In this document: piece by piece, positions 2 through 5,247 of the stretch | Numbering within the stretch: position 1 is the first letter of the stretch | Layout of the letters: every line of letters begins with the position of its first letter | Source of the DNA: Hydrogenophaga sp. IBVHS2 | Lineage (GTDB): Bacteria; Pseudomonadota; Gammaproteobacteria; Burkholderiales; Burkholderiaceae_C | Assembly: GCF_002127215.1 (NCBI RefSeq) | Contig: NZ_NFUT01000003.1 | Span: forward strand, 62,001-126,000 | Reading direction: 5' to 3' | DNA: 64,000 nt | Notes under the pieces: model-generated | Told to the model about the DNA's origin: nothing | Database searches by the model: none | The model's input: the letters and a program-made list of their open reading frames with translations, nothing else | Position numbers and translations under genes: made by a program

Positions 2-892
2 CTGGCGCGCCAGTTCGGCCCCGATGCGCAGGTGGAGGTGGTGTGGGTCGGGCCGTATGCCTACCGCAACGAATGCGTGCACGCCATGCGGCACGGCCGG
101 GTGTTCTTCATGGGCGACTCGGCCAAGATCGTCAGCCCCTTCGGTGCGCGCGGCGGCAACACCGGCGTGGCCGATGCCGACAACCTGGCCTGGAAGCTGG
201 CCCTGGTGCTGCAGGGCCGCGCCAGCCCGGCCCTGCTGGAGAGCTTCAACGACGAACGCCTGGAGGCCGCCCAGGAAAACGTGCGCGTGACCAGCCGCAC
301 CGCCCGCTTCCTGCGACCGGCCGACGGCATCGAGCGCACCTTCCGCACCGCCGCCATCGGCCTGGCCCGCGACCATGCCTTCGCACGGCCGCTCATCAAC
401 ACCGGCCGCATGGCCGTGGCCAACCCCTACACCCGCTCGCGCTGCGTGACGGGCCGCCCCGGCAGTGCCGCCGGCCGCTCGACCCAGAACGTGGTGCTGC
501 AGTGGGCCGACGGGCAGCCTGGCGAGCTGCACGACCTGCTGGCCTGGGCCGGCAGCGATCTGCTGCTGCTGGTGTTCGGTCCGCAGCCCCCGGCCTCCCT
601 GCAGCGCGTGCGCCAGCTCGGCAGCCATGCGCCGCTGCGGTCGGTGCAGGTGCTCGGGCCGCGCGAGCGGGGCGGCGCCGTGGAGCAGGTGCGCGACCCC
701 AAAGCCCACCTGCGCGCCACCTGCACGCTGGATGGCGCCCCCCCGCCCGGCTGGGCCCTGGTGCGGCCCGATGGCTACCTGGCCGCCACCGGCAGCCGCA
801 TCGACGGCTCGCTGGTGCAGGCGCTCGAACGGGCGCTGGGCCTGCGCGAACCCCTGTCCACTTCTGCCATCGCCACCCAGGTCTCCGCATGA
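2..892 (+). CDS. FAD-dependent aromatic monooxygenase, 3' part
   Basis: The gene enters from the left edge, so its N-terminal FAD-binding Rossmann region is outside the window. The visible part carries the second FAD motif of class A flavin monooxygenases: GDSAKIVSPFGARGGNTGVA followed by DNLAWKLALVL. It is then followed by a C-terminal thioredoxin-like region typical of the phenol hydroxylase/MhpA branch. The likely role is NAD(P)H-dependent hydroxylation of an aromatic substrate in the cytoplasm; the substrate cannot be read from the sequence. The reading frame is open from base 2, so no start codon is called. Its TGA overlaps the ATG of the next gene (ATGA), and that DUF2783 partner is commonly found beside such monooxygenases. 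Confidence 0.85.
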   Translation: MARQFGPDAQVEVVWVGPYAYRNECVHAMRHGRVFFMGDSAKIVSPFGARGGNTGVADADNLAWKLALVLQGRASPALLESFNDERLEAAQENVRVTSRTARFLRPADGIERTFRTAAIGLARDHAFARPLINTGRMAVANPYTRSRCVTGRPGSAAGRSTQNVVLQWADGQPGELHDLLAWAGSDLLLLVFGPQPPASLQRVRQLGSHAPLRSVQVLGPRERGGAVEQVRDPKAHLRATCTLDGAPPPGWALVRPDGYLAATGSRIDGSLVQALERALGLREPLSTSAIATQVSA

Positions 893-1089
893 ACCACCCT
901 GCCCTGCAAGCCACCCCGCAGTGGGAAGACGCCGACGCCTTCTACGAGCAGCTGCTGGACGCCCACGCCGGCCTCAGTGCCGAAGACTCGGCCCTGCTCA
1001 ACGCCCGGCTGATCCTGGTGCTGGCGCACCAGATCGGCCGGCGCGACGTGCTGACCGCCTGCATCGAGGCCGCGCGCCTGCCGGGCTGA
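889..1089 (+). CDS. DUF2783 domain protein
   Basis: A 66-residue protein with the core DAFYEQLLDAHAGLSAEDS and NARLILVLAHQIG, which matches the small DUF2783 family. The ATG overlaps the stop of the upstream monooxygenase by four bases, so the two are translationally coupled. The family has no established biochemical role. Its regular pairing with FAD monooxygenases suggests an accessory or stabilising function (inference). There is no signal peptide or membrane segment, so it is presumably cytoplasmic. Confidence 0.8.
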   Translation: MNHPALQATPQWEDADAFYEQLLDAHAGLSAEDSALLNARLILVLAHQIGRRDVLTACIEAARLPG

Positions 1090-1124
1090 GCCCCGGCCGC
1101 CCCGGCGAACACCGGGGGGCACCG

Positions 1125-1178
1125 TAAAATCGGGCGCTTCCCCGAACACCACCGACGGCATCCTGCGGGATGCCGTCG
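1125..1178 (+). promoter_or_regulatory. valS promoter -10 and leader hairpin
   Basis: A TAAAAT hexamer lies at 1125-1130. An inverted repeat at 1153-1178 has 11-bp arms (CGACGGCATCC and its exact complement) around a TGCG loop. The hairpin ends 16 nt before the valS ATG and is not followed by a T-run, so it does not look like a terminator. I see no Shine-Dalgarno sequence between hairpin and start. It may affect translation or stability of valS mRNA (inference). Confidence 0.45.
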
Positions 1179-1194
1179 CCACTCTGGCGCCCCC

Positions 1195-4179
1195 ATGACC
1201 GACACCGTGAACCAGCCCGGCCTGGCATCCCTGGCCAAATCGTTCGAGCCCGCCCCGCTGGAGGCCCGCTGGGGCCCTGAATGGGAACGCCGCGGCTACG
1301 GCCGCGCCGGCCACCGGGGCACGGGCGAGCCGAAGGCCGGGCAGCCGGGATTCGCCATCCAGCTGCCGCCGCCCAACGTCACCGGCACGCTGCACATGGG
1401 TCATGCGTTCAACCAGACCATCATGGACAGCCTCACCCGCTACCACCGCATGCTGGGCGCCAACACGGTCTGGGTGCCGGGCACCGACCACGCCGGCATC
1501 GCCACCCAGATCGTGGTGGAGCGCCAGCTGCAGGAACAGGGCATCACCCGCCACGACCTCGGCCGTGAAGCCTTCACCGCCAAGGTGTGGGAGTGGAAGG
1601 AAAAGAGCGGCAACACCATCACCACCCAGATGCGCCGCATGGGCGACAGCGTGGACTGGAGCCGCGAGTACTTCACCATGGACGAGAAGCTCTCGTCGGT
1701 GGTGACCGACACCTTCGTGCGCCTGTACCAGCAGGGGCTGATCTACCGCGGCAAGCGGCTGGTGAACTGGGATCCGGTGCTCAAGACCGCGGTGAGCGAC
1801 CTCGAGGTGGAGAGCGAGGAAGAAGACGGCTTCCTGTGGCACATCAGCTACCCGCTGGCCGACGGCTCGGGCGCCCTCACCGTGGCCACCACCCGGCCCG
1901 AGACCCTGCTGGGCGATGTGGCTGTCATGGTCCACCCCGAGGACGAGCGCTACACCCACCTGATCGGCCAGCAGGTGGTGCTGCCGCTGTGCAACCGCAC
2001 CATCCCGGTGATTGCCGACGACTATGTCGACCGCGCCTTCGGCACCGGCGTGGTCAAGGTCACCCCGGCGCACGACCACAACGACTACGCCGTGGGCCTG
2101 CGCCACCGGCTGCCCGTCATCGGCGTGCTGGCGCTGGACGCCAGCATCAACGACCACGCCCCCGAGAAGTACCGGGGCATGGACCGCTTCAAAGCCCGCA
2201 AGGCCGTGGTGGCCGACCTGGAAGCCGCCGGCCTGCTGGTGGAGACCAAGAAGCACAAGCTCATGGTGCCGCGCTGCGCCCGCACCGGCCAGGTGGTCGA
2301 GCCCATGCTCACCGATCAGTGGTTCGTGGCCATGACGAAGGTCAGCGAGCAGGACCCCACCGGCAAGAGCATCGCGCAGAAAGCCATCGACGCGGTGCAG
2401 TCCGGCGAGGTGAAGTTCGTGCCCGAGAACTGGGTCAACACCTACAACCAGTGGATGAACAACATCCAGGACTGGTGCATCAGCCGCCAGCTCTGGTGGG
2501 GCCACCAGATCCCGGCCTGGTACACCGAAGATGGTCAGGTCATCGTCGCCCGCAACGAAGCCGAAGCCCAGGCCCAGGCCCCGGGCAAGACGCTCACGCG
2601 CGACCCTGACGTGCTCGACACCTGGTACTCCAGCGCCCTGGTCCCGTTCAGCACCATGGGCTGGCCCGAAGCGGCGGGCGGCATGGGCGCCGGAAAGGGC
2701 GATTTGGTGAGCGCAGCGAACATGAGCCCGTCCGGCGACGATGCCGTCCGCCGCTTCGGGCCAGCCAGCACCACCGACTACGACCTGTACCTGCCCAGCA
2801 CGGTGCTGGTCACCGGCTACGACATCATCTTCTTCTGGGTCGCCCGGATGATCATGATGACCACCCACTTCACCGGCCGCGTGCCCTTCCGCCACGTCTA
2901 CATCCACGGCCTGGTGCGCGACGCCCAGGGCCGCAAGATGAGCAAGAGCGAAGGCAATGTGCTCGACCCGGTCGACCTCATCGACGGCATCGCCCTGGCC
3001 CCGCTGCTCGACAAGCGCACCACCGGCCTGCGCAAGCCCGAGACCGCCCCGCGCGTGCGCAAGGACACCGAAAAGGAATTCCCCGAGGGCATCCCGGCCT
3101 ACGGCGCCGACGCCCTGCGCTTCACCTTCGCCGCGCTGGCCTCGCTGGGCCGCAGCATCAATTTCGACAGCAAGCGCTGCGAGGGTTACCGCAACTTCTG
3201 CAACAAGCTCTGGAACGCCACCCGCTTCGTGCTCATGAACTGCGAAGGCCACGACTGCGGCCTGATGGAGCACACCAAGGAGCAGTGCCAGCCCGGTGGC
3301 CCGGCGCACGGTTACATGCACTTCAGCCAGGCCGACCGCTGGATCGCCTCGCTGCTGCAGAAGACCGAGGCCGAAGTGGCCAGGGGCTTTGCCGAATACC
3401 GCCTGGACCATGTGGCCAACGCCATCTACGACTTCGTGTGGAACGAGTTCTGCGACTGGTACCTGGAGATCGCCAAGGTCCAGATCCAGACCGGTGACCT
3501 GGCCCGGCAGCGCGCCACCCGCCGCACCCTGATCCGCACGCTCGAAGCCATCCTGCGACTGGCCCACCCGGTCATCCCCTTCATCACCGAGGAGCTCTGG
3601 CAGAAGGTGGCCCCGGTGGCCGGCGTGCTGCCGGCCGATGCCGACCCGGCGGGCGTGTCGGTGAGCGTGGCGCGTTACCCCGAGGCCCAGCCGTCCAAGA
3701 TCGACGAAGCCGCGATCGCGCACGTCGCCCGCCTGAAGTCGCTGGTGGATGCCTGCCGCAACCTGCGCGGCGAGATGGGCGTGTCGCCGGCCCAGCGCCT
3801 GCCGCTGTACGCCGTGGGCGATGCCGACTTCATGCGCGAGGCCGCACCGGTGCTGCAGGCCCTGGCCAAGCTGTCCGAGGTGAAGGTGTTCGACGACGAG
3901 GCCGCCTGGGCCGCTGCCGCGCAGGCCGCGCCGGTGGCGGTGGTGGGCAGCACCCGCCTGTGCCTGTTCATGGAAATCGACGTGGCGGCCGAGAAGCTGC
4001 GCCTGGGCAAGGAAGCCACGCGGCTGGAAGGCGAGATCACCAAGGCCCAGGGCAAGCTGGGCAACGAGTCTTTCGTGGCGCGCGCGCCGGCGGCGGTCAT
4101 CGATCAGGAGCGTCAGCGCCTGGCCGACTTCACCGCCACCCTGGCCAAGGTCCGCGAGCAGCTGGCCCGCCTGGGCTGA
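1195..4179 (+). CDS. valS: valyl-tRNA synthetase
   Basis: Class I aminoacyl-tRNA synthetase that charges tRNA-Val in the cytoplasm. At 994 residues it is longer than typical proteobacterial ValS (about 950). The HIGH-type motif is in [15 protein letters not shown] near residues 60-75. The editing domain follows ([12 protein letters not shown]). The KMSKS loop is [10 protein letters not shown] near residue 580. The C-terminal coiled-coil arm typical of ValS ends the protein. Residues about 489-524, between the conserved GWP and [16 protein letters not shown] blocks of the catalytic domain, are encoded by a 108-bp palindromic segment that gives a glycine/alanine-rich insertion. The ATG at 1195 lies just after a leader hairpin. 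Downstream is a convergent dehydrogenase gene. Confidence 0.97.
2659..2766 (+). repeat. in-frame palindromic insertion inside valS
   Basis: The left arm 2659-2684 and right arm 2741-2766 are inverted repeats of 26 bp with one mismatch. The pairing continues inward for about 10 bp (2685-2694 with 2731-2740, two mismatches), leaving a centre of about 36 bp. The total is 108 bp, exactly 36 codons, so the valS frame is kept. The sequence AGCACCA lies both 2 nt before the left arm (2650-2656) and directly after the right arm (2767-2773), resembling a short duplication. The encoded residues interrupt a stretch where other ValS proteins have a short linker between GWP and the LPSTV block. Confidence 0.75.
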
Positions 4180-4180
4180 C

Positions 4181-4197
4181 AGGCCGCACGCGGCCCT
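4181..4197. terminator. hairpin between convergent valS and dehydrogenase
   Basis: AGGCCG-CACG-CGGCCCT forms a short GC-rich stem in the 24-nt gap between two convergent stop codons. There is no T-run on either side, so intrinsic termination is only a possibility. Confidence 0.3.
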
Positions 4198-4203
4198 GGG
4201 CGA

Positions 4204-5247
4204 TCAGGGCAGCTGCATGTCCAGCGCACCCCATTGCGAGGGCGACAGGTTCTGCGGGTCGCTGCCACCGGGGTAACGCTCACGGTCCAGCGGCATGAAC
4301 TCGCTGCTCACCGTGGGTTCGCGGCGGGCCGCTTCCGGCGCCAGGGTTTCGTGGATGCGGTGCACCAGGTACCAGCTCGCCCGCATCTTGGCTTCGCGGG
4401 TGTGCGAGCCCAGCCGGGGCGTGAGGTGCAGGTGCGCGATGCCGTGCAGCACGCTGCCCGGCGCCGCGAACTGCGGGCCCGCGCCGTCGAGCATCATGGC
4501 GTCGATGCGGCCATCGGTCAGCGCCAGCGCCAGGGCTTCGGCGTCGAACAGCGAGCCCCGGCTGATGCCCACCCACAGCTGCCCCGGCTTGCAGTGGTTG
4601 AGCAGCCGCTCATTGATCCAGCCGTTGAAGCGGGGCGCGTGGATCATCTGCAGGGTGATGGCATCCGAGCGCTCCAGCAGGTCCTGCACCGGCACCGCCT
4701 CCACGCCCAGGCGGTCCCATACATCGGCCGCATGGTGCACCGCCGGGTCGTAACCGACGAGCTTGACGCCCAGGCAGCCCAGCATGGGGGCCAGCGCATG
4801 GGCCACCGGCGACAGACCCAGCAGGCCGATGGTGCTGCCACCGATCTCGCGGCCCAGCCGCACCTCCGACAGACGCCGACCCAGCAACGCGCTGACCATG
4901 CCGCGCCGGTACAGCATCAGCAGGCCGTAGAGGATGTATTCGGCGTTCGAGCGCACCGTGGCGCTGCGCGCCTGCAGCACCCGGATGTTGCGTCGGGCGC
5001 AGTCGTCCAGATCGATGTTGCCGCTCGACATCTGCAGACGGCCCACCACCTCCAGGCGGGGCGCAGCATCCAGCATGTGGCGGGTCACCACCACATGGGT
5101 GGGAAGCACCACGGCGCGCGCCTGCGCCATGGCCTTGATGAGGCCGGCCGGATCGTCGGCCAGCTCGGGGATGTAGGTGACCGCGTGCCGCTGACGCAAC
5201 CACTCCAGGGCCTCGGGCACCAGAGGATCGACCAGCAGGACTTCCAT
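4204..5247 (-). CDS. degenerate D-2-hydroxyacid dehydrogenase family protein
   Basis: A 347-residue cytoplasmic protein with the overall layout of D-isomer 2-hydroxyacid dehydrogenases: an N-terminal substrate-domain half, then a Rossmann half. The dinucleotide motif is altered: STIGLLGLSPVAHALAP has GxxG but an alanine where the last glycine of GxGxxG normally sits. Of the catalytic triad, the arginine is present (GISRGSLFD). The glutamate position falls in MMLDGAGPQF, and the histidine of the usual TPH motif is arginine (LTPRLGSHT). Redox activity is therefore doubtful. It starts 23 nt after the TusA-like gene on the same strand and may share its transcript. The ATG at 5247 is the only good start. 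Confidence 0.75.
   Translation of the reverse strand: MEVLLVDPLVPEALEWLRQRHAVTYIPELADDPAGLIKAMAQARAVVLPTHVVVTRHMLDAAPRLEVVGRLQMSSGNIDLDDCARRNIRVLQARSATVRSNAEYILYGLLMLYRRGMVSALLGRRLSEVRLGREIGGSTIGLLGLSPVAHALAPMLGCLGVKLVGYDPAVHHAADVWDRLGVEAVPVQDLLERSDAITLQMIHAPRFNGWINERLLNHCKPGQLWVGISRGSLFDAEALALALTDGRIDAMMLDGAGPQFAAPGSVLHGIAHLHLTPRLGSHTREAKMRASWYLVHRIHETLAPEAARREPTVSSEFMPLDRERYPGGSDPQNLSPSQWGALDMQLP

Follow-up and report, generated by a model that had tools for sequence, protein, structure and literature searches.

The valS gene of Hydrogenophaga sp. IBVHS2 contains, in frame, an 84-bp palindromic element whose two arms vary from species to species yet stay complementary and enclose a core that is conserved in sequence. 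The element is probably a mobile, non-autonomous repeat of about 84 bp in Comamonadaceae that sits in a loop of valyl-tRNA synthetase (ValRS), with arms homogenised and a core sometimes inverted by template switching. The window, by which we mean the entire 64,000-nucleotide stretch of DNA that was analysed, comes from an assembly of 3.17 Mb in 7 contigs that is 93% complete (genome G000). Its relevant features are collected in Table 1.

Table 1. Features of valS and of its palindromic element (positions in the window)
Feature	Position	Strand	Evidence or remark
valS, valine--tRNA ligase, 994 aa	1195..4179	+	Frame open through the element; NCBIfam PRK05729/valS; match to 1gax
AGCACCA, left flank (conserved FSTMG codons)	2650..2656	+	Also in relatives without the element
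Conserved host codons GWPE, outer left arm of the extended palindrome	2659..2670	+	GGCTGG also in relatives without the element
84-bp palindromic element, 28 codons, residues 493-520	2671..2754	+	Covariance model R1, 84.1 bits
Left arm (23 nt); its sequence differs among species	2671..2693	+	Alignment A1 and pair counts
Conserved core, 38 nt, identical in sister genome G012	2694..2731	+	
Right arm (23 nt), which pairs with the left arm	2732..2754	+	
Mirrored copy of host codons 2659-2670, beyond the right arm	2755..2766	+	In G000; in G025 with one mismatch
AGCACCA, right flank, outside the element	2767..2773	+	

The region from 2560 to 2860 contains a single inverted repeat, with 36-nt arms (2659-2694 and 2731-2766) that are 92% complementary. 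The near-perfect inverted arms of the original prediction are confirmed, with 25 of 26 positions paired in their outer part. Folded as RNA, 2659-2766 reaches -91.9 kcal/mol, compared with -51.4 +/- 3.5 kcal/mol for 200 dinucleotide shuffles (z -11.6), none of which was as low. A scan of window positions 1100-4300 against Rfam gave the hairpin a match of only 22 bits, far below the gathering score of 80, and assigned it to no family. The R1 match to the element is the sole strong one, both in the genome and in the window. An antisense open frame of 982 aa also runs through valS (window 775-3723, minus strand); the high G+C content probably accounts for it.

The limits of the element differ from those first proposed. 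The original prediction described a unit of 108 bp, or 36 codons, and the unit common to other carriers is the 84 bp at 2671-2754. It also proposed that the right arm is an inverted copy of host sequence, or else that the element had inserted at a matching site; an inverted host copy accounts for no more than the outermost 12-14 bp. In G000 and G025 the bordering host codons recur in mirror image on the far side of the element (with one mismatch in G025), and G012 has only the outermost six bases of this mirror. The predicted AGCACCA is present on both sides, at 2650-2656 and 2767-2773, and the right-flank copy is found in G012 as well and, with one base different, in G025. We rejected AGCACCA as a target duplication because the left copy consists of host codons that occur in relatives lacking the element and the right copy lies outside the element.

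Insertion of the element into valS is well supported. We read 26 congeneric valS sites (G000 included), of which four carry the element (G000, G012, G025 and G002) and 22 do not, which bears out the predicted in-frame palindromic insertion. The linker is 59 residues long in G000 and 31 residues long in 17 of these 26 sites, a difference of exactly the 28 residues encoded by the element. Similarly, the distance from DTWYSS to LPSTV is 27-31 residues in 75 of 137 relatives and 59 in G000. In all 39 valS copies examined, the core is in codon phase 0 and the copy spans 84 bp; 35 of these copies are in forward orientation and four are inverted. Doublets, inverted then forward, are present in two valS genes (L195 and L290), and one valS (L293) contains a tandem pair. 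The same site is filled in many other Comamonadaceae, which by the terms of the original prediction speaks in part against it, but only the core residues are conserved among them.

The core is present in 13 of the 76 sites that were read among 80 valS loci (10 forward and 3 inverted; L135, L143, L149 and L150 were unreadable), which is a fairer estimate than the 41 of 137 rows with the element, a figure that is not a frequency because some carriers were chosen for having the element. On a FastTree tree of the 137 valS rows (L167, one of 138, was dropped beforehand because its end motif was not found), presence changes at least 17 times, with 12 changes forced by starred branches, compared to a mean of 35.7 after shuffling. 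Gains and losses of the element are frequent but clustered, and repeated insertion and repeated loss are indistinguishable on this tree. Single branches were not trusted because G012 falls away from G000 despite 90% protein identity. L165 and L258 are close sister valS genes, the former without the element and the latter with it; the L165 linker is 6 residues longer than the shortest type, possibly as a scar.

The element is not the only repeat inserted in this valS loop. G001, one of the 22 congeneric non-carriers, holds a different repeat at this site, and repeats reading SVRPEPFEG...STGSARTD (L033), SVRAEPVEA... (L144) and ...SSLPPEGA... (the linkers of L166, L184 and L189) are found there in other species. 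This loop seems to be where inserted repeats land in general.

Placed on the structure 1gax, the insertion point falls after GWPEE, at residue 473. An AlphaFold2 model of the G000 enzyme (mean pLDDT 78.1, pTM 0.72) aligns with 1gax over 777 residues (Z 28.1, rmsd 3.5). The predicted model is consistent with the loop anticipated at this site, in that residues 493-524 have pLDDT values below 50, which is no proof of disorder because several shorter stretches elsewhere in the model are equally low. We take the segment to be a flexible loop of an ordinary ValRS.

What is conserved in the arms is their pairing and not their sequence. Alignment A1, an ungapped alignment of 22 valS copies from many genera (it excludes L194, and G025 and L181 were read later), resolves the unit into 23, 38 and 23 nt. 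The core sequence (CGATTT...ATGAG) is conserved in A1 and the arms vary, with 92.5% of 506 cells paired and two-sided changes in 20 of the 23 pairs. Covariation is 0.666, compared with 0.218 in shuffled alignments and at most 0.124 in slid ones.

Comparison of G000 with its sister G012 illustrates this pattern. None of the 38 core bases differs between them, whereas 10 and 11 of the 23 positions in the two arms have changed, at an overlap of changed arm positions with P 6e-4; fourfold sites elsewhere are 23% different. Nine pairs changed on both sides and are still paired, one changed on one side and is still paired, and two one-sided changes broke or mended a pair. The comparison with G025 was made separately and is absent from our 31 close pairs (which are not independent of one another), because the G025 contig ends near the site. 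Over 36 extended pairs, G000 and G025 differ on both sides of two pairs, both still paired, and on one side of six, where two changes make a mismatch, one makes a G-T pair and three restore a standard pair; three of 36 core bases also differ. In the two double changes, the left-arm substitutions (GAA>GAG and GCG>GCT) are synonymous and the mirror changes in the right arm replace residues.

Some other close pairs behave differently. L131 and L191 have no two-sided changes, three one-sided changes that are still paired and five that are broken or mended, and show decay. L161, L182 and L273 have almost the same arms (0-1 of 46 positions changed) although their fourfold sites differ by 26-27%. At the orthologous intergenic sites L243/L271 and L249/L259 the pattern is that of G000 and G012, in that the core is kept and the arms differ in step.

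G-T mismatches exceed A-C mismatches on the strand that carries the core, by 66 to 14 in the 35 forward valS copies, 14 to 6 in the 4 inverted valS copies and 26 to 9 in 23 non-valS copies. The G-T share in 24 copies is 83%, compared with 65% after shuffling. This excess hints at a constraint that acts on one strand in its single-stranded form. It is at most a tentative sign of selection at the level of RNA, because it tracks the core strand and not the mRNA strand, because base make-up alone gives the 65% share, and because there are only four inverted valS copies, two of them from near relatives. Pairing in our 62-copy set is inflated, because at least 13 of 24 Watson-Crick pairs were required for entry into it.

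The element belongs to a family that is dispersed in other genomes. The original prediction weighed whether further copies of the arms occur in the genome, and none was found in G000, where matches besides the element have E values of 0.097 or worse and the next R1 match after the valS copy has E 0.5. Elsewhere in G000 the core has ten imperfect matches (one with 1 mismatch and nine with 3 mismatches), and no hairpin is centred on any of them. In other genomes, in contrast, the core family is dispersed: R1 finds up to 12 copies in a single genome (G247), and weaker copies are present in eight further congeners. Of 399 genomes of the family, 26 contain the core pattern (45 matches), and the reversed pattern has zero matches in the same 399. 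The 26 genomes are a lower bound, since G083, G132, G148, G175 and G195 have R1 matches in valS and no pattern match; at least three of the 45 matches (L266, L280 and L283) are without a hairpin.

Beyond the family, R1 matched G000 alone among 200 order-level genomes (E 1e-4, strict filters). A shorter core pattern gave 36 matches, spread over 21 of the 60 genomes searched, some of these at order level. Of these matches, 28 were checked: the valS copies L079 and L083 reach 21-22 of 24 Watson-Crick pairs, whereas L078 (15 of 24) and the other 25 (9-13) have too few and were not counted as copies. No hairpin was seen in the short-core matches checked from other families. Plasmids and phages, searched in distant mode with a 122-bp query, and viral contigs, searched with the exact core pattern, gave no match at this sensitivity. 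With these searches, the repeat family was detected only in the GTDB family of the window.

Copies that are nearly identical at different places indicate movement. One copy in G132 matches two others there with identities of 96% (over 84 bp) and 98% (over 83 bp). These copies lie at unrelated sites, with no flanking match reported; because the sites are otherwise without similarity, the whole 84-bp unit has moved. In four of the non-valS loci analysed the copy lies inside a continuous reading frame; one of these is uvrA of G321, where a doublet lies in frame before the LLLEEITTRL block (L331:1425-1670). At L312, L325 and L335 a conserved domain begins after the copy, so these copies are located upstream of the start or within an open leader. 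The remaining non-valS copies analysed are intergenic by the base-composition gene rule, as applied to a genomic-context set of 54 matches in 41 loci that leaves most core-pattern loci outside it. All 18 pairs of opposite-strand neighbours within 300 nt are arranged minus then plus, and one same-strand pair is found in valS of G314.

Several of these locations deserve mention. Intergenic copies often lie shortly behind stop codons, for example 3' of a groEL-like gene (L315) and of an ftsZ-like gene (L247), both named by eye from the sequence. In G321, minus and plus copies 1.2 kb apart lie between two convergent genes (L326:1439-2803). An amidohydrolase locus with copies (L310-L313, L256 and L257, with a Pfam match in L312) looks common to different genera.

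Bacterial genomes contain several families of small palindromic repeats, which we compared with ours by their published descriptions. Rickettsia palindromic elements (RPEs) are small palindromic repeats, about 150 bp long, that are found in frame in unrelated genes and are thought to be compatible with protein folding (PMC10969869); those of R. conorii end in CGTC (PMC3733652). Like them, our repeat is inserted in frame in unrelated protein genes (valS of many species and uvrA of G321), and the suspected likeness to the Rickettsia elements holds in behaviour: in frame, in a loop and also in uvrA. Unlike them, the unit is 84 bp, is found in another bacterial class and keeps its arms in pairing only. 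REP sequences have stems of 5-13 bp with family-specific sequence and a GTAG/CGTC tag, and G-T pairing has been noted in them (PMC3733652). Our repeat resembles REPs, BIMEs and REPINs in being palindromic, mostly intergenic, sometimes intragenic and arranged in dimers of preferred relative orientation, the fixed opposite orientation (18 of 18 minus then plus) being REPIN-like, and G-T pairing occurs here too. Its stems, in contrast, are at least 23 bp and differ between loci. In a test for tags, the letters GTAG or CGTC were near an end, on either strand, in 9 of 62 copies and at varying places, so that the repeat is without the consistent tag described for RPEs and REPs. The original prediction also raised an associated REP-type transposase. 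No Y1 transposase (PF01797, RAYT) was found in G085, G211 or G132, each of which has several copies, and PF01797 is present in 18 of 26 genomes, carriers and non-carriers alike. We therefore rejected it as a partner, as it is not associated with carriage.

Another published repeat that resembles ours is the BRE, a betaproteobacterial repeat (Comamonadaceae included) of 75-91 bp at full length and high G+C, usually intergenic and sometimes wholly within coding sequences, which is reported to be conserved in sequence and to form tandem arrays at some loci (PMC3110155). Size, G+C content, host group and a mostly intergenic distribution with some copies in coding sequence are shared with our repeat; conservation of the arms in pairing only is not. 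Compared by description alone, our repeat may or may not be the BRE. Mitochondrial genes of Nematomorpha contain coding palindromes with perfect inverted repeats, in which both arms encode conserved protein (PMC6649704). These too are inverted repeats within working protein genes, although the abstract of that report mentions no conserved core or repeat family such as we find. No description of this valS element was found in the literature searched (subscription papers and figures lay outside the search). Our repeat works like an RPE, and we have not filed it as one.

Template switching during replication homogenises the arms of inverted repeats and inverts the spacer between them (PMC8604942, PMC8794818). 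It is a mutational mechanism and not an element, and we infer it for this repeat from the pattern, since both of the signatures that it predicts, homogenised arms and inverted spacers, are found here. In our reading, the repeat inserted in frame between GWPE and the YDLYLPS block of ValRS and adds 28 translated residues, which the protein could tolerate because the loop would lie outside the folded core. The hairpin would then form where the DNA is single-stranded at the replication fork, and template switching there would carry changes over from one arm into its partner. In G000 and G025 it would also have copied the host GWPE codons to the far side, and in some lineages it would have inverted the core. 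Copying from left to right would simply explain both the mirrored host codons and the changes that are silent on the left and replace residues on the right. The excess of one-sided (6) over two-sided (2) changes between G000 and G025 is a poor fit to this mechanism, as is the decay between L131 and L191, and the near-unchanged arms of L161, L182 and L273 fit selection on structure at least as well.

Selection on structure is central to a different explanation, in which the element is functional. A host factor would bind the core strand, folded either as RNA (in the valS mRNA and in 3' intergenic transcripts) or as single-stranded DNA. Selection would maintain pairing as well as core, and compensatory substitutions would follow. 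The strong covariation around a conserved core fits this explanation, as do the one-sided changes in G025, the G-T excess on the core strand, the static arms just mentioned, the retention of orthologous intergenic doublets whose arms are different yet paired, and the frequent location of intergenic copies behind stop codons of genes such as the groEL-like and ftsZ-like ones. We nevertheless consider it unlikely. The element is missing from 22 of 26 congeneric valS sites, its core pattern was found in just 26 of the 399 genomes of the family, a minimum count, and it matches no Rfam family. In addition, valS contains it in both orientations, which a cis-acting mRNA element could hardly tolerate, and selection on the 84-bp element does not require the mirrored outer host codons. 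A more specific version, in which the core is displayed on a long stem of free sequence and enforced pairing, is recognised by a host factor as RNA or single-stranded DNA, and also shapes the synthetase, is slightly less likely still.

Two further explanations have little in their favour. A palindrome that arose de novo within valS by template switching, and is no mobile repeat, would be consistent with the failure to find a second copy in G000 and with the outer right arm that mirrors host codons. However, the core recurs in valS of other species, in uvrA and between genes, and G132 contains nearly identical copies. De novo origin of the core is thus already refuted, could hold only for the outermost 12 bp, and as an account of the whole is very improbable. 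A hairpin of -92 kcal/mol within an essential message might also suggest that the segment is never translated, being skipped by the ribosome or lost from the mRNA. We regard this as the least probable explanation, to be given hardly any weight, because codon phase 0 and the 84-bp length are kept in 39 of 39 valS copies, and a fixed phase and length are expected only if the segment is read through. A mobile repeat altered by template switching remains the explanation that we favor.

The element provides a natural series, in which one hairpin occupies one codon position of an essential gene in many species, with its core and flanks as internal controls. The debated question of whether long stems are kept paired by selection or by template-switch mutation thereby becomes testable. 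In addition, the range of coding palindromic repeats now reaches beyond Rickettsia into betaproteobacteria. Because the arms vary by species yet stay complementary, the palindrome rewrites a stretch of protein: synonymous changes on one side are mirrored as replacements on the other, such that the palindrome itself writes protein sequence.
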